Source: Druceiella hillmani | Taxonomy: Eukaryota; Arthropoda; Insecta; Lepidoptera; Hepialidae | Direction of reading: 5' to 3' | NCBI GenBank assembly: GCA_039881145.1 | Contig: JAYKKI010000037.1 | Span: 19,589,001 to 19,653,000 of the forward strand | DNA: 64,000 bases | Part shown: positions 16,232-64,000 of the stretch, piece by piece | How positions within the stretch are numbered: position 1 is the stretch's first letter | How the letters are laid out: the number at the start of each line of letters is the position of its first letter | The notes under the pieces: model-generated | Seen by the model: the letters and a program-made list of their open reading frames with translations, nothing else | Told to the model about the DNA's origin: nothing | The model's database searches: none | Made by a program: the position numbers and the translations under genes

Positions 16232-17359
16232 ATATGAAAGGAAGTAAATATATCGAATTAGGTGACATTGAGCAATTTGACATAATTTTTTAAATTTAAT
16301 TGTGTATCTAACAATTTCAATGTACGTACTAATATAAAAAACGAATTTATCACTATACGATCAGTCAGCTGTAGTTATGAAATAAACTCGCTATAAGAAG
16401 TCTGTTTACAGTTTGATGTAATAATTTCTAAACATTCGTAAAAATATATGTATACACATATGTATTAACTGGGTCTTTATATATGTACCCATATGAAATA
16501 GATTTGGAGAACTACAATAATATATGAGAGAAGGAAGGTGAGTTAATAATAAAAGACTTGAAAACTTTCATTATATATTCTACCTACCTTCCTACGTGCA
16601 GACGAATCCGTAATCAGGAATTTCAATTTAAATTATTATCATATTTAGCATAAATATTAATTTCACAAGTTTGTTTTGATATTGAATATAGTTATTACCA
16701 GTTAAGATATCAAAGTTTCGGGTATAAATAACAGTTAACAACGGTTAAATTCTAGACGCAAGTTGCGAGTCGTTGCCGCTATAAAAGTGAAACTATCATC
16801 GACTACTGACCTGCAGAAGTAGCTGTGCATATCCAGACCTCAGCAGTAACTATTGGCAAGTTTACTAATTTTATCACTTTATTCTTAGTTACACATAGAT
16901 TGCATACACATTTCACTTCAGCCAAAATTAATATCCTGTTTAAGACACTGAAAAGATATTAGTGATCTGTAATTTCACTAAGCAATTTATATAACTACAC
17001 CAATCTATTGTATTGACTTAACCACTAACCACTGGAGACTAAGTTGATTGAATAGCAGACCTTTACCAAATAGAACACTACCATACAAGTTCTTTAAAAA
17101 TACGACACTGAAGAAAGTGTCAAAATCGGCAATTAATAATTTGCTAAACAGCGCCACCGCTAACGGCACCGCAGATGAACAGCGCCGCCTACTGACAACA
17201 TCTTAAAGTTTTAAGACCAACGAACTTATTTTGATAACGGTGTAATTAGTAATATTAAGTCATCGGTAGATGGCACAATATAATTGAGATAAATTTAACG
17301 TTCACTCAATTGGTATACCATATTAAGCGTACATTATAATTAATTTCATTGAATCAACT

Positions 17360-18358
17360 ATGAACTGCTCTAATTGCTCCAAATATTGCCAGGACACTGA
17401 AGGGTTAAAATGTGCTAAATGTACATTAAAATTTCATTACACGTGCATCGGAATGGGAGAGAAAGATTTCAAAAAAATGCTCCCGATGAACAAAGGTAAA
17501 TGGAAATGTCCAACATGTAAAATTCGGCAGAACACGAAAATAGTAGCTTCGCCGTCATCATCTGTCAGCTCAGAAATATTTCCGATTGATTTTGAACGTT
17601 ATATAACACATATCGATACAAAAATTGATAAATTTGCGACTACCTTCACAGAAAAAATTAAAAATGATTTAAAGGAATTAGTGATTGGCTCAATTAAAAC
17701 CGAACTAAATGCAATTAAAGAAAAAATCACGTCACTGGAAGGATTCGAAAAGTCTTTGGAATTCCATACTGCCGAACAAGATCGCCTAAAGGCAATAATA
17801 GCGGACAATAACAAAACCATAGACAGTTTAAAGGCTTCCAGTGACTTGATGCGAAAAGAATTCGACTTATTAAAATCGAAAATTGAAGAACTTGAACAAA
17901 CAGCTCGTCAATGTAACATCGAAATACAAAACGTTCCTGAGAATAAAAGTGAGAATATTCAAAATATAGTGGCTAATTTAGCAGTAGCCTTAAACGTACA
18001 CATACCTCTGGAGCAAGTACGAAGTGCACATCGCGTTGCTACCGGAAGTTTGGACCGCTCGCGTAACATCGTGATACAACTGGCTACGCGACGCCTGCGT
18101 GACGATATTCTAGTGGCGGCACGTGTGCGTCGCTCTCTCACAACACGCTCTCTTCAGCTCTCAGTGCCCGAACAAAAAATTTATATAAATGAACATCTTA
18201 CGTTACACAAAAAAATACTTCACGCAAAAGTACGTGCCGCGAAAAAACAGAAAGGCTACGAGTATGTTTGGGTACGAAATGGCAAAATTTATGTGAGGAA
18301 AAGTGCCGGGGATAAGTCTTTCGTAATCAAGTGTGAAAGCGATATCCAGAAAATGTGA
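17360..18358 (+). CDS. LINE ORF1 protein: PHD finger, coiled coil, FP/L1-ORF1-like C-terminus
   Basis: This 332-residue protein should bind the LINE RNA and package it as a ribonucleoprotein in the cytoplasm. Residues 3-53 form a PHD-type zinc finger: C3-x2-C6, C18-x2-C21, H26-x2-C29, W48 and C50-x2-C53. Residues about 85-190 are Lys/Glu-rich with heptad-like Leu/Ile spacing, a probable trimerising coiled coil. Residues about 185-330 (starting near RQCNIEIQNVPE and including EQVRSAHRVATG, IVIQLATRRLRDDIL and YINEHLT) match the FP/L1-ORF1-type single-strand nucleic-acid-binding fold, and basic residues are dense at 240-310. The ATG at 17360 is the first Met before the zinc finger. The stop is TGA followed by CTA, a leaky context, and the same frame stays open to 18652. 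What the PHD finger binds is unknown. Confidence 0.85.
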   Translation: MNCSNCSKYCQDTEGLKCAKCTLKFHYTCIGMGEKDFKKMLPMNKGKWKCPTCKIRQNTKIVASPSSSVSSEIFPIDFERYITHIDTKIDKFATTFTEKIKNDLKELVIGSIKTELNAIKEKITSLEGFEKSLEFHTAEQDRLKAIIADNNKTIDSLKASSDLMRKEFDLLKSKIEELEQTARQCNIEIQNVPENKSENIQNIVANLAVALNVHIPLEQVRSAHRVATGSLDRSRNIVIQLATRRLRDDILVAARVRRSLTTRSLQLSVPEQKIYINEHLTLHKKILHAKVRAAKKQKGYEYVWVRNGKIYVRKSAGDKSFVIKCESDIQKM

Positions 18359-18652
18359 CTATTTTTTTATCTCAAAATTACCTGTGTGTTATGTGTAATA
18401 TGTGTAGAATGTAATCATTTAAGCTCTAGTGTTGATATTAATCACTTTCCCATGTTATTCACGATTGGAAATAATTTGAATTATTATTATACAGTCAAAC
18501 AAAGTCGAAAATTTAGATATTGTTATAGTATCCAACTCCTGTATAGTTTCTTTGTCGATCTGTTAGTGTTATGTTTGTATTGTAATTGTCTGCTGGATAG
18601 GTTTCAGCTATTTTGTATTTCATTGTATTTTATTTCATTTATTCCAAGTTAA
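18359..18652 (+). other. In-frame open extension downstream of the ORF1 stop
   Basis: After TGA at 18356-18358 the ORF1 frame continues for 97 sense codons (LFFYLKITC..., then CVICVECN, ending ISFIPS) to a stop at 18650-18652, 22 nt before the ORF2 ATG. The peptide would be hydrophobic and rich in Cys, Tyr and Phe. UGA-CUA is the best-known metazoan readthrough context, so a minor extended ORF1 product is conceivable. The extension could equally be chance: open frames of this size occur elsewhere in the window. It also serves as the spacer across which ORF2 must be reinitiated. Confidence 0.4.
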
Positions 18653-18674
18653 ACTAACCATTCGTTTGTAAAAT

Positions 18675-21560
18675 ATGAACGAACTAGTAAAATTATCAGT
18701 TTATTATCAAAATTGTGGCGGAATTAAAACCAAGACTAATGAACTGCGCATGAATATTCGAACAAATAACTACGACGTAATCGTACTTGTCGAAACTTGG
18801 CTTCACCAAAACATATTTGACGCCGAGTTCATAGACGACCGATACACGGTGTTTCGACGTGATCGAAATCTATCCAGTAGCATTAAATCGTATGGAGGTG
18901 GAATTGTTATTGCGGTTATGACAAAGCTTATTGCAAAGCGTTGCCGTCAATGGGAAAACGAGGATTTGGAGGAACTATTTATTTCTTTGCGAATGAAGAA
19001 TTTCTCCCTTGTATTATGTGCTGTTTATATTCCACCGAAATTTTCGCAAAATATCTATAAAAAACATTTCTGCAATTTACAAAATTTATATACTGATAAT
19101 TTTAGTAACCACATATTAATTGTTGGTGATTACAATATTCCAACCCTAAATTATCAGTTTATGGAAAATTGTCCCTATGGCATCATAAATGACAGCTTTG
19201 ACCCCTTAGTTGCCCTTGTTACTGGTGTCACCTCGTTCATGAAATTGGAACAGCTTAATTACCTTAAAAATTGTAATAACAGGACTCTCGATCTCGCACT
19301 GAGTAATTGTAAATGTAAACTCTCTTCTGCGGAACCATTACTTCGTGAGGACCGCCATCATCCTACTTTCCTCCTCACAATTGATTGCTGTCCAGAGGTC
19401 GCGATGAAAAAGGCTGACAATTCAAAGTACAATTTCCGCAAGTGCGACTATACTGCAATCAATAAAGAGCTAGAATCCATAAACTGGGAAAAGGAGTTCC
19501 ACCAGCTTTCAGCTACCTGCGCTGTGGATAGATTTTATATTATTATTTTTGATATTATCAATAAATTAGTTACAAAGAAACCACAAAAATCCAGGAAACA
19601 TCCAACTTGGTACACTCCTAAATTGATACAGATAAGTAAACGTAAAGAAAAATTTTGGGTAAAATGGAAATTATACGGTAACTTCTCCGATTACTTAAAT
19701 TTCTCTAAGTTAAGAAGTCAATTTAAGAAAATATCTCGGTCTTGTTTTCGTGACTACGTCCACAATACTGAGAAACTTATTAATAACAACGTAAAAGGTT
19801 TCTGGTCATACGTGTCATCACTAAAGAAGTCAGAAGGATACCCATCGTCGATGAATTTCGAAGGTTATGAATCGAATGACATTCAAATGATATGCCAAAT
19901 GTTTTCTGAGTTCTTCAAATCTACATTTGAACGGAACCCACCTCTAGATCCAAATAATATTTGTGAATCCTTCGAACAAAACCTACCTCCTCATCACAAT
20001 TTAGCACTTCAGATGGATATTAATATCACCTCCATCCGCTTCCAAAGAGATGAAATAACTAATGCCCTCAAGAAAATCAATCCCAATAAGGGAGCAGGTC
20101 CAGACAACATTGAACCTATATTTCTCAAAAACACACACGATACGATTTCTGCTCCACTCACTATAATATTTAATATGTGTATCTCGCAGGGTACGTTTCC
20201 CGGGTGCTGGAAAGATGCACATATAATACCAGTATATAAATCTGGGAGTAAACAATCTGTCGAAAATTATCGGCCTATATCCATTTTGTCAGCAGTGTCT
20301 AAGGTATTTGAAAAAGTGGTTCACAATAGGATTTATCCGACATTGCATCGGCATATTATTGAGGAGCAGCATGGATTCGTACGGAACCGGTCAACATTAA
20401 CCAACCTGTTATTGTACACGCAATATCTCTTTAAATCTATGGATTGCAGGACACAGGTTGATTCCATCTACACAGATTTTAAAAAAGCTTTCGACAAGGT
20501 TGATCATCTCATATTGCTAAAAAAACTCTCTTTTAACGGTATAAAGGGCAATTTACTTCGTTGGTTCGTCTCCTATCTCAGCAACCGGCAACAAGCAGTA
20601 AAAATTAACGGTTTTATATCACCTCATGTTCCCGTCACTTCAGGGGTACCTCAAGGTTCCATATTGGGTCCCTTTTTGTTTATCATCTTTATAAATGACA
20701 TCAGCAATTGTTTTAAACACAGCAAGTTCCTGTTATATGCTGACGACCTAAAGATTTTCTCCAAAATAAGAGATTCTTCTGATCATTCGAAGTTACAAGA
20801 AGATCTTAAAAGACTAGATGCGTATTGCAGAATAAACAAGATACAATTAAGTCATAGTAAGTGTAAATCGATCACCTTTTCTAAAAATAAGACAATCTAT
20901 TTTCATACCTATGACATAGGTGGTCATTCTTTGGAATCTATTAATTGCATACGTGACCTTGGTGTAATGTTTGATCAAAAGCTACATTTTGATTTTCACG
21001 TAAAGCAGATCACATCGCGAGCTTATGCTTTGCTAGGCTTTGTTTTACGAACTACCAAACCCTTTAAGCAAATGAGAACGTATCGCATCCTCTACACAAG
21101 TCTTGTGCGATCTCAACTTGAATATGCTGTTGCCGTCTGGAATCCTTACTATCTTACATATTCTGATATGATCGAAAGAGTGCAAAAACGATTTATACGT
21201 ACATTGCAATATCGCTTCAATACACCCAAAATAGACTATTATAATGCATTGGATACATTCAAATACCGTACTCTCCACGAAAGGCGTATCGAACTCGGAG
21301 CAATTGTACTTTATAATATTTGCCATAGTTGTTATGATTGCGCCGATATAGTGAATCAGTTGCAGTTTCGTGTGCCAGGGAGAGCGACCCGTAGCATCGC
21401 ACTGTTCCATCTACCTACCGCTCGTACTAATGCTGGTGCTCGTGTACCACTACGCAGGCTTTGTGATGATTGCGACGGAAAATTTCATTCTCTAGATATA
21501 TTTGCCAGCTCAGTATTTCAATACAAACAGTCAGTTAAACGGATACTATACAACCATTAG
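18675..21560 (+). CDS. LINE ORF2: AP endonuclease plus reverse transcriptase
   Basis: This 961-residue polyprotein nicks the target DNA and reverse-transcribes the LINE RNA at the nick. Residues 1-240 are an exonuclease-endonuclease-phosphatase fold: N13 in YYQNCGG, E40 in LVETWL, D152 and N154 in VGDYNIP, and H229 in DRHHPTF. In many relatives a His directly before Pro occupies this last place. Reverse transcriptase spans about 450-740: NKGAGPDNIEP, YRPISILSAVSKVFEKVV, motif A TDFKKAFDKVDH with D601, GVPQGSILGPFLF, and FLLYADD with catalytic D690 and D691. The remainder (RSQLEYAVAVWNPY, MIERVQKRFIRTL) is the C-terminal region typical of CR1/Jockey elements. No RNase H domain is visible. All catalytic residues I can place are present, so it may be functional. 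Confidence 0.92.
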   Translation: MNELVKLSVYYQNCGGIKTKTNELRMNIRTNNYDVIVLVETWLHQNIFDAEFIDDRYTVFRRDRNLSSSIKSYGGGIVIAVMTKLIAKRCRQWENEDLEELFISLRMKNFSLVLCAVYIPPKFSQNIYKKHFCNLQNLYTDNFSNHILIVGDYNIPTLNYQFMENCPYGIINDSFDPLVALVTGVTSFMKLEQLNYLKNCNNRTLDLALSNCKCKLSSAEPLLREDRHHPTFLLTIDCCPEVAMKKADNSKYNFRKCDYTAINKELESINWEKEFHQLSATCAVDRFYIIIFDIINKLVTKKPQKSRKHPTWYTPKLIQISKRKEKFWVKWKLYGNFSDYLNFSKLRSQFKKISRSCFRDYVHNTEKLINNNVKGFWSYVSSLKKSEGYPSSMNFEGYESNDIQMICQMFSEFFKSTFERNPPLDPNNICESFEQNLPPHHNLALQMDINITSIRFQRDEITNALKKINPNKGAGPDNIEPIFLKNTHDTISAPLTIIFNMCISQGTFPGCWKDAHIIPVYKSGSKQSVENYRPISILSAVSKVFEKVVHNRIYPTLHRHIIEEQHGFVRNRSTLTNLLLYTQYLFKSMDCRTQVDSIYTDFKKAFDKVDHLILLKKLSFNGIKGNLLRWFVSYLSNRQQAVKINGFISPHVPVTSGVPQGSILGPFLFIIFINDISNCFKHSKFLLYADDLKIFSKIRDSSDHSKLQEDLKRLDAYCRINKIQLSHSKCKSITFSKNKTIYFHTYDIGGHSLESINCIRDLGVMFDQKLHFDFHVKQITSRAYALLGFVLRTTKPFKQMRTYRILYTSLVRSQLEYAVAVWNPYYLTYSDMIERVQKRFIRTLQYRFNTPKIDYYNALDTFKYRTLHERRIELGAIVLYNICHSCYDCADIVNQLQFRVPGRATRSIALFHLPTARTNAGARVPLRRLCDDCDGKFHSLDIFASSVFQYKQSVKRILYNH

Positions 21561-22514: not shown

Positions 22515-23073
22515 AAAAATATAAATATAAATATAAATATAAATATAAATATAAATATAAATATAAATATAAATATAAATATAAATATAAATATAAATAT
22601 AAATATAAATATAAATATAAATATAAATATAAATATAAATATAAATATAAATATAAATATAAATATAAATATAAATATAAATATAAATATAAATATAAAT
22701 ATAAATATAAATATAAATATAAATATAAATATGAATATAAATATAAATATGAATATAAATATGAATATAAATATAAATATAAATATAAACATAAATATAA
22801 ATATAAATATAAATATAAATATAAATATAAATATAAATATAAATATAAATATAAATATAAATATAAATATAAATATAAATATAAATATAAATATAAATAT
22901 AAATATAAATATAAATATAAATATAAATGTAAATATAAATGTAAATATAAATGTAAATGTAAATATAAATATAAATATAAATATAAATATAAATATAAAT
23001 ATAAATATAAATATAAATATAAATATAAATATAAATATAAATATAAATATAAATGTAAATATAAATATAAATA
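22515..23073. repeat. Hexanucleotide microsatellite (AAATAT)n, about 93 units
   Basis: About 560 bp of AAATAT units with a few variants. GAATAT units cluster at 22731-22765, one AAACAT lies near 22790, and AAATGT units cluster at 22925-22960 with another near 23053. Long homogeneous blocks lie between the variant clusters, as expected from repeated slippage or unequal exchange that spreads variants locally. Because six is a multiple of three, all frames stay open and yield spurious Asn-Ile, Lys-Tyr and Phe-Ile polymers; these are not genes. The sequence on both sides (22000-22514 and 23074-23589) is AT-rich and shows no gene. Confidence 0.95.
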
Positions 23074-23584
23074 ATAAAAATAATGAAATCGAAAAAATTA
23101 TAACTACTTTCTTGACTAAGTACACTTTTTCATAGAACCTTTTTCAAATCATTTTCTTTAATGTTTTAATTATAAGTTATGAATTTGTTTTCACTCGGTA
23201 TTTGAAACTTTATGGTAATAATATTTGTGTTCAATTTTTTTATAATTATTCATAATAATTACTATAGGTGTGTTCTAGGATAAGATAAAAGTATAATGTT
23301 GAGAAACTCTGCATTTCGCGGCCATGAGTACAACTTACATTGCAATAATATAAGTAATTATGTAGTACAAAGAGTTAATTTTTTTGGTTTAAACAACAAT
23401 TTTTATATATATTACAACAGTTGCGAAATTAATTAAAATGCATTATAAAAAACATTACCTGATTACAGAGTTGAATGTAATAAGTGAGGAAGATTGCTTC
23501 GTTAATGAATTGCAATTTTTAAACTGTTATAGTATCTTTAATATATACACTGTATGAAATAAATTACTGTATATAATAATTTAC

Positions 23585-57960: not shown

Positions 57961-58143
57961 TCATTAAATATTATAAAAGTAAGTGCACAATGTGCGTTTC
58001 GCTAAACTCAGAAACGATCACGGGAGTGTGGGTATTCCGGTACGACCAAGGAAGTTATTTGGTATGATTGCCCTCTATCTCCCATCCATGAAGAAGGTTC
58101 CCGTTTTTACCTAAGTGGCATGTCTAAGGGCAGTAAGTTTCGC

Positions 58144-58341
58144 CTTCTAGAAATTTCTAGAACAGTCCAGAACATTCAGGAGTATTCGAAAGCATCCAAC
58201 AACATTCTAGAACATCCTGGAAAATTCTAGAATGTTGTAGAATGTTTTGGAGTATCCCGGAATAGCCCAGATCATCGTGATATATTCCAGAATACTCTCG
58301 AATGTTGTGGAATATTCTGGAATATTGCGGACCATTCGAAG
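58144..58341 (+). promoter_or_regulatory. Tandem heat-shock-element array, 10-bp period, about 19-20 units
   Basis: Read in blocks of ten the sequence keeps register for about 195 bp: CTAGAACATT, CTAGAACATC, CTGGAAAATT, CTAGAATGTT, GTAGAATGTT, CCGGAATAGC, GTGGAATATT, CTGGAATATT and so on. Each block has GAA near its centre and most end in a TTC (or diverged TTN) across the junction, so GAA and TTC pentamers alternate continuously, which is the heat-shock-factor site nGAAnnTTCn. The first 19 bp (TTCTAGAAATTTCTAGAAC) make four perfect pentamers. Ordinary heat-shock promoters have a few short clusters; this array is far longer. It ends about 35 bp before a TATA box. The minus-strand open frame over it (58157-58471) reflects the periodicity and is not a gene. 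Confidence 0.75.
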
Positions 58342-58374
58342 CTTTTTTTGTACTAGTATACCTTTTGGTAGGGG

Positions 58375-58412
58375 TATATAAAGCAAGATCCGTCCTGTGT
58401 TCGAACATCAGT
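58375..58412 (+). promoter_or_regulatory. Core promoter: TATA box and arthropod initiator
   Basis: TATATAAA at 58375-58382 is followed 33-35 bp later by TCAGT at 58408-58412, the arthropod initiator with A58410 as likely start. The transcript leader (58410-58577) is A-rich and contains GTGAAGTGCAGTGAGTGAAT, similar in style to insect hsp70 leaders. Together with the upstream array this is the layout of a heat-shock gene promoter. Confidence 0.6.
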
Positions 58413-58577
58413 TTCTTATTCGTGAAGTGCAGTGAGTGAATAAAAACAAACGGTGAAGTGTCAGTAATCAAAATGATATAGTGACTGAATATAAATCGAA
58501 AATACAGTGTGAAATTTGTTTATAGCGAACTTAGTGTATTTTTTAATAAAAAGTTCATTTAATTTATATTTTATACA

Positions 58578-61500
58578 ATGGCCAAATATAAAAGAGAAGG
58601 AGATCTTGCCAGTTCCGAAGCAAAACGGCGAATACAAAAAGAGGAGCTTACATACCCAACGAACGAGAACGAGGACCATAGAAGAAAGCGAGAAACCGAA
58701 GAAAAACGAAATGAACGAATTGAAAAAACAAAAATTGCAACTCAATCTTATAATAAAAGACTGCAAACGCAAACCACATATAAATATAACACGCTACAAG
58801 AAGCGCAGATGAGGAAAAGTAAATAGTACAACTTAATAAATTAATCAATCCACTACGACCCGACGAAAGAATATAATAAACACAAACACATCGTAAAGAA
58901 AAGTCGATAACACTTGCCAATTTTGCAATGCGCAAAAATTCAGTACAGAAACAATAGGAATCGGTTGCATGAATGGAAAAATTCGAATACCACTACTAAG
59001 AAGTACCTCCGATGCAATTTCTATATTACCTGACCGGGAAAACTCTAGGATCAAAACACTTTCTTCAGAATATAAAAGCGTATAATGCCTGCTGCCAAAT
59101 GGCTTTTTTCGCTGTTACTTCGATCAATATTGACAGAGATGAAATCGATTATGTTTTTTTATGCAAGGATAAATCTGTCTCAAAATGGAATCATTACTAC
59201 CACTACCCGACGAAGACTACAAATTTCTGAAATAAAAATTGATCAACTATGCACAAATATCAGCAGATTGAAATAATCCAAGATGTACAGAGGATCTTAC
59301 ACAAATACAATCAGATTATTGGTATATTCAGAACAGCATTAAACCGAATGATTTCTGATGACTATATAGTTATAATTCGTGCTGATAAGAGATCACGGGG
59401 AGAAAACCAACCTTTATTTAATGCACCTTAGATAGACGAAGTTGCTGTCATAATTGTGGACAATAAAAACACAAGCTGTGACAAAATTGTACAACAAAGA
59501 AGAGACTACAACGCATTACAGAGACACATCATTCATAAGATACCCTCCAATATCCATTAATATTTCTGCACGGAGACGGGGGACATTATTTTAATGTTCA
59601 ATAAATCCAACCTGAAACAGACGGGGAAAGGAAAAAAAATTAACTTCCAAAGAGTTCTATTCTTAATTATCATAGACAATAAAACATACAATCACATTCT
59701 CAACCGTTAGATGCTGGATATACATAATCGAATGGCAAAAACGAGGAGTACCTCACTCACACAATCTCATGTGGGTTCACGAGAGAATTCATTCCATGGA
59801 TATCGACAAAATTATTATATTCCAATGCACGAAAAGATCCGAAGCTCTACAACATACTTGTGAAAAATATAATTCCGTGAATTTCATGTGGACCATTAAT
59901 CGCCAATTCGTCATGTATGAGTAATGTAAAATGTACAAAAATCTACTTAGAACCATACTTGGATGACACACAAACCGGAGATGATGGCTATTCCAAATAC
60001 AGAAAACGTTCACTCAAAAAAGGTTGCTTTACAGCAAAAATACGAATACGAGGCAGATACGAACCGGAAATAGATAATCAATGGGTAGTAATATATAACC
60101 CACTACTTTCCAAAATGTTCCAAGTACACACTAACGTAGAATACTGCAATTCAGTGAAATCCATTAAATATGTCTGTAAGTATGCGAACAAAACATGTGA
60201 TATTATTTTAAATTATCAAAGACAGGGAAAAATAAAACAGAAACGACGAGATCCTCATGTACCAAATTGGGAGATACATCAGCAGTAACGAAGCAGTGTG
60301 GCGGATTTTTGGTTTTCCTATACATGAACACGAACTATGTAACATATAACCGTGAATTTGGAAAATGAACAGAGAATTTACTTCATAAGAGCCTGCTAGA
60401 AACATTTTTCAACTTCGCCAAACGGACTCATTCACGAAAACATTACTACTTGTCGATATCCCTATCTATTATACGTGGAATACAAGAAAAACCTTTCAAT
60501 GACAAAAAAAAAGGAATTCCAGTACAGGATCATCCACGCAATATTAAAATTAACACACTAGATGTTTCTATCTCCAGATGTTGCTACACGAAATACGGGA
60601 AGCGACAAGTTTCACAGATTTCAAGACTGTTGACAGTTACCTATTTTAGTTACCTATACAAGAAGCCTCACTTAGCCTCAGGTGAACAAATCGAGACTTA
60701 TTCGCCATAATATTAACAACATGTAACCCATCAAATTCAAAACAATTATGGGGCTCCTACAAAGAGAGTATGAGTGATGACATACTATACTAAATCTGAC
60801 AAGTTTATCCAGAATCGGCCATCGAACTCAACCACGACATCTTCAATGAAAGAACTCATTCCCCTAGAAGATAAATATTTAGCAATAAAAAAACCGACCT
60901 TAGTACAACTTGGGATGCGTGCACCACCATAAGGTACCTTCAGTGGGCTAAACGTCGAAATTACAAGAAAAAAAAACTAAAATACCAACGAACTACTGCA
61001 ATACATTGCTCATAACAACTCACTCTTCAATGACAATAAACTCAAGTCACTTCCAGCTATTTCCAAATCAACATCGGGAGACAAAATCAATGCACACTTA
61101 AAAAAATCACATCTCTGGCCACACATATAAATACTGCGACAAACAGAGGGGGTTAGTCTATAAAAGGAGTAAACAATAGCACATTTTGCTCAAAAACTTT
61201 TACAACCAGGAGAAGGTACATATCCTAATGACCAGACGACCGGCCTCGTTGACATCTATAATGATTTCTGCGACGAGCCACTACTGATAACGAACTTAGA
61301 CCAAATTTATTCAAATATTGTTTACTATACTAATCTAGAGTGGCCAATTCAAAGCGCAATTTTGTTATTATTGTCGACGATATCAAATTTAATATACAAA
61401 AACAAAAGTGTCAACTTCAGTATATACTTTTTAAACTTTTTGCAAGTACCAGGAATGCCATTAGACTGCCTTTGTCTGAAAATTGCATCTCCGATCATAC

Positions 61501-61847
61501 TACTCAAAAATCTCAACTCATCAAAACTATGTAAAGGAACAAGGATGATCGAGCTATCAAATAACATCATTGAAGCCGAACTTATGACAGAAAAGGGCAG
61601 TATTTATCCCCAGATTACCACTGATTTCCACTGAACTGCCATTGCAATTTAAAAGACTGCAATTTCCAATCAAATTAACAAAGCGCAAGAACAAACTTTA
61701 AAACATTGCGGCATTAACCTCAAAGAATCATGCTTTTCTCACGGTCAATTATACGAAGCTCGGTCTAGAGTAGGAAATTCGACAAATTTGTACATATATA
61801 CCCCGGATAATAAAATGAAAAACGGTATTTACAAACCAGTACTGTAA
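58578..61847 (+). pseudogene. Helitron Rep/helicase relic
   Basis: The ATG at 58578 opens an 82-codon frame (MAKYKREGDLASSEAKRRIQ, then charged sequence) like Helitron N-termini, and stops at 58826. Across frames follow AVIIVDNKNTSCDKIV and QQRRDYNALQRHI (about 59450-59530) and the Rep HUH site VPHSHNLMW (59748-59774; both His kept). An open 123-codon piece at 59917-60288 contains DDTQTGDDGYSKYRKR and the two-tyrosine motif IKYVCKYANK (Tyr codons at 60169 and 60181). Then come LFAIILTTC and LEDKYLAIKK before the helicase. After NNSLFNDNKLKSLPAI (about 61060) the Walker A and B region is deleted; sequence resumes at SHLWPHI (about 61110), QTTGLVDIYNDFCDEPLL (about 61238) and LKIASPIILLKNLNSSKLCK (about 61477). 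It ends in CFSHGQLYEARSRVGNSTNL, YIYTPDNK and a stop at 61845-61847. Frameshifts and stops are scattered throughout. It is nuclease-like in residues but dead. Confidence 0.88.
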
Positions 61848-64000
61848 ATCGTGAAAATATGTTCGCAATGAAAAATGTTCATCTTTTATATTTTAAAGTT
61901 TATCCTTTCATTCCAACTACCACAAGATCTCGCATCAACTCTCTGAGCAAAGTCGGCTATCCCAGCTTGTATTTCAATAAATCTTATCCACATTCTTCAA
62001 AGACTCATTGAGATAATTTCAAAAATTATTGCAAAAGAGGCACAATAGTATAAATTCAAACCGTAATTTATTTTTTTAATAAAAACTTTATATGATTTTA
62101 AAAACATTAATCATTTTTATAGTTGCAGTTACGCCATTAAAAGTCTAACTTAGGATCTTGAAAGCTAAAAGAGCTGTAGGGCCGATAGCACAATGATTCT
62201 AACGATGAAAAAAATATGAATAACAAAATATTAAAAGTTACACCCAAAACACTTAAGTTCTGTATATTTATATTTTATTGGTAACGGATCAGCTTACTTT
62301 AAGCTACTTATTTTAGTGCTGAACGTATTACAAAATCACTATACGAGGTATAATACATACAAACTAAGCACTATGTCGGTGCGCTTGGAAGATTAAAGTA
62401 GATAATTTAGTTTAAGTGTGTGTGTATGTGGGTTTGGAGATTATTCTCCCTATATCTCTAAGCTTAGATTGATACTCACTCATTTCCAGTATATATTAAT
62501 ATCTAGAATATACGTATGAAATTAGAGAGTATCAATATAGGTAACACTTAAATGATATCGCATGTCGTACAATCATGTAATAAATATTTGACACGCCTTA
62601 CTTACCAGTCAGAAATTTAAACAAAATTTGTAAAAAAACAAATTGTAAATAAATAAAATATCTTTGTGATAGCAAATAAAAGGTGTAAACCCACTGAACA
62701 TTCAAATATAGTATAATAAATAAACTTATAAAGTAACCCCTTGTATTGTTCAAATTGAAATTGAAGTTTTGAAATTTTTAAGGCTTCAATTTTATCTATA
62801 CTGTTTGATAAATTCCAAGTTATGCATATTTCGTGGCATGGAATCTTACTTAGATGGATTTGTTAATACCACATTACGCATAAATACATTATTAAATTGT
62901 ATACTGAATCATTTTGCTTACAATGGTGTCATATTCTTGCTTTGGTTAACCAACTAATAAATAAAATGAATTTTGTCTTTAAAACTTAGTGACAAAATTG
63001 TCTTACAATTGGAAATACTTCCAATGTACTTAATTAAAGGAAATTCATTGAAAAAATCCGTTTCTTACTAAGATTGTAAAATATATAAACTTCAACAAAA
63101 ACTACTTGTAGTAAAAATTATATAAAACAATGTAGTAAAAACTTTGTCGCTAAATTATATTATACAAATTGTTATTACATTTAGCTTTATTCGAATTAAT
63201 ACGTATATTTTTATTTTTTAACATAATGTTAAATTTATTTCAAATATTGTCCTGAATTTTTTTTAAAAATTGTGTTTGCAATAACATACAATTTCATTGC
63301 AAATTAACATCTATCTTAAGATAAGTACTTCAAGATAAGTATATCGATTTTCCCTTACTTCCAGTTCTTGATATACAAACCTATAGCATAGTGTGAGCTT
63401 TGATAAGTAAACAAAATATTTCTATATCTCCACCCGAAGTTTTCATTTGAAATTTTGAAAAAGAATAAATGTGCACGCGGCACGTTTTGCAAAAAATTAA
63501 GGCTAGGAAATATCTAATTAATTTAATTCTTGTAATTTACAATTTTTTTCCACGGGTCATAATTATTTTTTGAACATTTTTAATTAAACTCGTTTAAATG
63601 TTTGACCAAATAAATATTTTAATAAAACCTTACTATAAAACAAATTATACGTTTAATTTTCTAGGAATTTTTCGAATAGGAGAAATAATCATTCGGTCGT
63701 TTGTAATTTCACTGGATTCCAAATTTTTTACATCAACACATGAGCAGGGTATGAAATCATAAAATAAATTTTAACTACCCTAAAATAACATTTATATATT
63801 ATTTACTACTAAGCGAGTAACCGTCTGTGTGCGTGATACTGAGCACATTTCCAATATTCTCCTTCACTCGCTATAATCGAAACAATAAACGCAAGTAACA
63901 GAGTTCCCTGGATATCGATTCATTTTACTGAAATGCAAATTAACTTGTAACAGTGTAGCTATCGAACAAGGGATTCTATAGTGCTGCGCCTCAATGGAAG
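61848..64000. other. AT-rich non-coding stretch
   Basis: The first 200 bp may be Helitron 3' sequence. A foldback lies at 62468-62536. An open frame at 62769-62957 shows no motif. The sequence around 62175-62205 (GGGCCGATAGCACAATGATT) is less AT-rich and could be a worn SINE head, but no tRNA-like fold could be drawn. Confidence 0.4.
62468..62536. repeat. Imperfect foldback of about 69 bp
   Basis: ATTGATACTC (62468-62477) pairs exactly with GAGTATCAAT (62527-62536), and the pairing continues inward with mismatches for another 15-17 bp. It is likely a miniature foldback or hairpin remnant. Confidence 0.65.

Follow-up and report, generated by a model that had tools for sequence, protein, structure and literature searches.

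A Helitron in the Druceiella hillmani genome carries, ahead of its open frame, a long run of alternating GAA and TTC pentamers that reads as an array of heat-shock elements (HSEs), the binding motif of heat-shock factor (HSF). The locus raises the question of whether this array belongs to the Helitron, whether it serves as the element's promoter, and how it arose. We analyzed the 64-kb window (the whole stretch of 64,000 nucleotides) together with copies of the element fetched from the same genome. The features of the window copy are listed in Table 1.

Table 1. Features of the Helitron copy, in window coordinates.
Feature	Position	Strand	Basis and remarks
Helitron copy	57961..61969	+	boundaries from alignment with fetched copies, 57961 to ~61970
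Helitron 5′ terminal region, upstream of array	57961..58137	+	40-row alignment
HSE array, alternating GAA/TTC half-sites, 10-bp register	58150..58337	.	~19 units; 40-copy consensus, 20
Inverted CCAAT-like box, degenerate, tentative	58361..58369	-	consensus CCATTGGT; mutated in window
TATA box TATATAAA	58375..58382	+	motif reading, 40-copy alignment
Initiator-like TCAGT	58408..58412	+	motif reading
Putative transcribed A-rich leader	58410..58577	+	deduced from the TATA box and initiator; present in other copies
Helitron open frame, start	58578..58826	+	ATG 58578-58580; stop at 58826 in window copy
Rep fragment, Helitron_like_N	59676..59924	+	E 3e-6, 28 bits, just under curated cut-off of 28.9
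HUH motif, KRGVPHSH	59739-59762	+	pattern found in window and L021 only
Rep two-tyrosine motif, YVCKY	60169..60183	+	also in L013, L017, L018, L021, L025, L027
Helicase fragment, Pif1 2B domain (Pif1_2B_dom)	61173..61634	+	E 3.8e-9, above curated cut-off

We searched the genome with the array and TATA box as query and took the best 40 scored places of 1042 candidates, the window included, after two opposite-strand self-matches had been dropped. Twenty of these places were fetched as 10-kb stretches and 19 as further 5′ ends, and together with the window these gave an alignment of 40 rows. At its left end, where the first-pass annotation had placed the start of its feature, the element begins with TC. 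A TCA stands at this position in 21 of the 40 rows; in the others the end is truncated or mutated, or the alignment has shifted it. Of the 21 rows with TCA, 18 have TAA just before it, so the left end is uncertain by up to 3 bases. The 3′ ends of 15 of 21 copies were aligned (L010, L012, L016, L017, L024 and L025 were left out). CTAG followed by T was found in 14/15 aligned rows; the window reads CTTG followed by T (CTTG at 61966-61969). At these occupied sites, an A precedes the TC in 20 of the 21 TCA rows (G in the window), and a T follows the 3′ end in 15/15.

Domain matches were obtained from six-frame pieces downstream of the promoter. The termini, the Pif1 2B domain and the HUH and two-tyrosine motifs, which are hallmarks of Rep, bear out the identification as a Helitron. 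The window copy is ~4.0 kb long and is deleted relative to longer copies (e.g., ~6.3 kb in L013). Forward frames free of stops reach no more than 180 aa in the 20 fetched stretches and the window element, so none of the copies examined keeps an intact frame. The copies diverge from their consensus by 7 to 25%, typically ~10%. The window element belongs to an abundant Helitron family, of which it is a decayed copy; as far as sampled, the family is apparently inactive.

The pentamers keep the strict 10-bp register that had been described for them: in our reading of the sequence, the last digit of the coordinate is 0 where a GAA core begins and 5 where a TTC core begins. Of the 39 slots in the 200 bases that start at 58141, 21 hold an exact half-site; dinucleotide shuffles (n = 500) average 3.0 and never exceed 5. 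All 21 copies exceed the maximum of their own 500 shuffles (8 to 23 exact half-sites per copy, shuffle maxima 5 to 8), the weakest being L022 with 8 vs 6. The earlier estimate of roughly 19 to 20 units agrees with the window and the consensus alike. The consensus array of 40 copies comprises 40 half-sites arranged as 20 units, with 26 half-sites perfect and 14 carrying one mismatch. Exact half-sites in its main register number 15 GAA and 11 TTC, and each of the other nine phases holds 0 or 1. Tandem Repeats Finder detected only two short pieces of 20-bp period in the array, which indicates that the units have diverged and that the register is carried by the cores.

We counted as an HSE any start position from which three half-sites match in at least 8 of their 9 core letters. 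The window array holds 20 of these, compared with 30 in the remainder of the 64-kb window, and the arrays of the 40-copy set (194-222 bp) hold 10 to 24 each (median 17). As a control, the ten columns of the 10-bp register were permuted 1000 times. None of the 1000 permuted repeats attained the 20 start positions of the window array, and for each of the 21 copies at most 1 in 1000 attained the observed count. Perfect 9/9 triplets number 4 in the window array and 0 to 6 per copy, with permuted-repeat maxima of 2 to 6; this count alone is non-discriminating because permuted repeats can match the observed values. The proposition that the array scores above shuffled 10-bp repeats thus stands at the threshold of at least 8/9, in 21/21 copies; the 9/9 count does not separate the two. 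Separately, the arrays contain 21 deletions, among them three of 10 bases, one of 15, one of 20 and nine of a single base. On these counts, the idea that deletions keep the phase of the array was dropped.

The array is followed by TATATAAA, TCAGT, the A-rich leader and the ATG, in the order given by the first-pass annotation. Of the 40 copies, 32 have TATATAAA unchanged and 8 have it with one mismatch. TCAGT is an arthropod-type initiator. TATATAAA and TCAGT were both found in 24 of the 40 copies, and in 23 of these 35 bp separate the first T of the former from the A of the latter. Between the array and the TATA box, the consensus has a CCATTGGT box that is exact in 14/40 copies. The consensus frame opens with MPKRKRGGDL, its ATG being retained in 24/40 copies. 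Searched with up to 3 mismatches, the 25-base core promoter has 643 matches in the genome vs 0 for its reversed control.

The consensus layout therefore consists of ~40 contiguous half-sites in one helical register, then a TATA box ~40 bp downstream and the initiator 35 bp beyond it. From this arrangement we hold with good confidence that the Helitron family has its own promoter of the HSF type, that its Rep-helicase would be stress-driven, and that the array would have grown within the element. By analogy with its Caenorhabditis relatives, the Helitron was probably once switched on by stress. Under heat or proteotoxic stress, HSF trimers would bind the array side by side and cooperatively, and the array-bound HSF would drive transcription of the Rep-helicase. 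Such induction would tie transposition to stress. The array itself would have started as a short HSE in the element that was then duplicated in tandem, and the copies that remain may even now supply HSF sites to genes nearby.

We weighed this reading against the alternative of a neutral minisatellite that lies within the Helitron, resembles HSEs by chance and plays no promoter role. Helitrons and Helentrons often contain internal minisatellites. The first-spacer dinucleotides of the 20 consensus units are non-random (CA in 13, TG in 4, TA in 2 and AT in 1); this skew is compatible with tandem duplication of units, in line with the tandem expansion suggested at first pass, and is also what tandem duplication alone would produce in a neutral repeat. 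The difference in conservation between core and spacer columns is modest (0.894 vs 0.848 in 40 copies, p = 0.013; base-stratified p = 0.007), weakens to p = 0.056 once units 9-12, which align poorly, are left out, and has p = 0.063 with the first 21 copies. On the other hand, the array sits directly upstream of the TATA box and initiator at a fixed spacing, and every consensus half-site (40/40) retains at least two of its three core letters. The same motif is also functional in Caenorhabditis Helitron promoters, according to PMC6927752. Taken with these observations, a neutral minisatellite appears unlikely.

It had also been proposed that the element captured or evolved a heat-shock promoter, and capture in its full form would mean that array, TATA box and leader all derive from a host heat-shock gene. 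Helitrons capture gene pieces. We found 33 hsp70 matches in the host genome, including five full-length uninterrupted frames (L061-L065), and, for the HSF DNA-binding domain, two good matches and a weak one with stops. In ~770 bp upstream of each of the five hsp70 genes, HSE start positions number 1, 0, 3, 10 and 7 for L061 to L065 in turn, so that the host uses the same motif as the Helitron array, although two of the five genes have at most one HSE by this count. These HSEs are sparser per length than those of the Helitron (10 in 766 bp at L064 and 7 in 774 bp at L065, compared with 10-24 in 194-222 bp), although the 10 of L064 equal the lowest array count. The hsp70 promoters share HSE half-sites and a TATA box with the Helitron, and at L064 and L065 the HSEs, CCAAT-type boxes and TATA box come in a similar order, as capture would have it. 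The CCATTGGT box of the Helitron and the similar boxes of these two genes suggest a heat-shock-type layout, no more. L064 and L065 share a contig, and both have CCATTGG boxes as well as HSE clusters ahead of the TATA.

Sequence comparison with the hsp70 promoters, the only host promoters compared, did not reveal convincing homology of the core promoter or leader beyond the HSE motif. When the Helitron core promoter was compared with 350 bp of each of the five, its score was attained by 14 to 252 of 300 shuffles. The leader reached a score against L065 that only 1/300 shuffles attained, which would favour capture, but the match is AT-rich and gapped, and the other four promoters gave 11 to 89/300. 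The array scored well against L064 (0/300 shuffles) and L061 (2/300), but the likeness is limited to ~21-22 bp of shared HSE motif. The 5′ end of the Helitron against L062 gave an AT-rich match (3/300). As the core promoter and leader lack convincing hsp70 homology, capture of a host promoter is not supported, and we regard it as improbable.

The array-picked copies with long flanks run on into Helitron sequence in 20/20 cases. Because the 40 copies had been selected by their array, we drew two further samples. For the first, the leader was used as query, the best 40 scored of 925 places were taken, and 311 bases upstream were fetched for 20 of the 39 other places (ranks 2-22 without rank 20). 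Array sequence is present in 19/20 of these copies, though only partially in L074, L077 and L084; L091 has no array and diverges near the initiator. For the second, the helicase DNA was used as query (best 40 scored of 947), and the seven best new copies were fetched over 3.2 kb. Six of the seven have no array within the 3.2 kb examined, a reach that could miss an array moved away by a large insertion (L013 has ~4.3 kb between its array and the helicase stretch), and L069 retains a partly deleted array.

Copies without the array had been named at first pass as the sign of an unrelated flanking minisatellite. Such copies do occur among the helicase-picked ones, but they show differing break points or an internal deletion, and the leader-picked sample has array sequence in all copies but one. 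In five helicase-picked copies, the match to the window element ends upstream at differing points, from 58374 to 58958. In L070, the 5′ end is joined to Rep sequence through an internal deletion from ~58112 to ~60562. The parts upstream of the break points are mutually unmatched, except for extensions of the coding match of ~20-50 bases that L067 shares with L069 and L071, so no alternative array-free 5′ module is apparent among the helicase-picked copies. L072 has a dispersed repeat that is present also in L015, L021 and L025. The array and TATA box are integral to the Helitron: they fall between its termini and are found again in its copies. An unrelated satellite flanking a Helitron is next to impossible and was rejected, since, for all that the array is missing from L091 and some helicase-picked copies, the shared left terminus lies ~190 bp upstream of the array, with flanks that differ (by eye) beyond it, and the array accompanies nearly all leader-picked copies.

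L070 and L073 represent a derivative in which the 5′ end is fused to Rep sequence, without array or frame start. In L071 (~position 1232 as oriented), the match starts at TATATAAA, the homologue of 58374; the core promoter is present and the array is lost.

We compared the element with known systems. HSEs in Helitrons were noted at first pass for Caenorhabditis, in agreement with PMC6927752. There, Helitron1_CE and other Helitrons carry HSEs, HSF-1 binds them by ChIP, and the Rep-helicase is heat-induced; the F33H12.6 promoter has 14 HSEs, with signs of overlapping tandem HSEs. That paper describes HSE enrichment in only three Caenorhabditis species among UCSC metazoan genomes and suggests that it is possibly genus-restricted. 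Like the Caenorhabditis Helitrons so described, the present family has dense HSEs in the Rep-helicase promoter and many copies genome-wide. It differs in having one unbroken consensus array of 40 half-sites and in residing in another genome, and its heat response is predicted from sequence. The wheat Xuan-Feng Helitron Feng8 is active and has a heat-responsive promoter, tested by reporter, with a predicted nTTCnnGAAn element (PMC13286980). It thus resembles our element in placing a heat-type motif in a Helitron promoter, but it is a plant element with a predicted element and not a long array. ONSEN/ATCOPIA78 of Arabidopsis, mentioned in PMC13286980, is likewise mobile with this heat-response motif in its promoter, but is a retrotransposon and not a Helitron.

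Among the literature matches listed, as represented by titles and the starts of abstracts and with subscription papers mostly outside, we recognized no report of an arthropod Helitron with an HSE array. HSE-bearing Helitrons are therefore already known, and the lineage and the unbroken array of 40 consensus half-sites are new as far as the literature was searched. A second animal genome with a long, clean consensus array points either to Helitrons having co-opted the heat-shock response convergently or to a design that is older or has spread horizontally. With its hundreds of core-promoter matches, this one genome offers a system for asking if stress-linked transposition feeds HSF sites to genes.

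We assessed how far HSE clusters extend beyond the Helitron. Five consecutive perfect half-sites have 413 matches in the genome (205 + 208 by strand, some overlapping) vs 25 for the reversed control. Six such matches fall in Helitron copies, in 4 of 60 copies, so that strong sites of this kind are scarce in the decayed family, a point against the HSF-type reading. Extrapolated to 643 places, the Helitron share of the 413 is ~64, a rough figure from non-random samples. Counted by eye among the 100 matches listed, 23-base HSE strings recur 5, 6 and 3 times. Two HSE-bearing places, L094 and L095, have no Helitron core promoter and only short matches to Helitron copies (≤49 bases); one of these, 32 bases long, is between L095 and the Helitron coding part. 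Since these places are unlike the Helitron and the HSE strings recur, other repeats in the genome likely carry HSE clusters, on the evidence of these matches. We put forward more tentatively, as a reading that may well prove wrong, that Helitrons recruited HSE arrays independently outside Caenorhabditis and that several other repeats here are HSE-bearing as well. If true, stress-linked promoters would be a recurrent strategy of mobile elements in this genome, and much of its stock of strong HSEs would be repeat-derived. Core-promoter and 3′-end patterns had no matches in viral contigs. An exact seven-half-site HSE-like pattern was found in nine stretches of IMG/VR contigs (L033-L041) and may be due to chance.

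Further features were recorded in the window and the genome. A non-LTR retrotransposon-like pair of long open reading frames lies at 17327-21560 (+) of the window: the first, of 343 aa, matches Baculo_FP_2nd and, weakly, PHD, and the second, of 962 aa, is a reverse transcriptase. At 22517-23083, the window contains an array of the AAATAT hexamer, with 94 copies and 96% matches. Four places in nuclear contigs (L029-L032) are COX1-like mitochondrial fragments that are open under the invertebrate mitochondrial code, and L031 adjoins frames that appear copia-like by eye.
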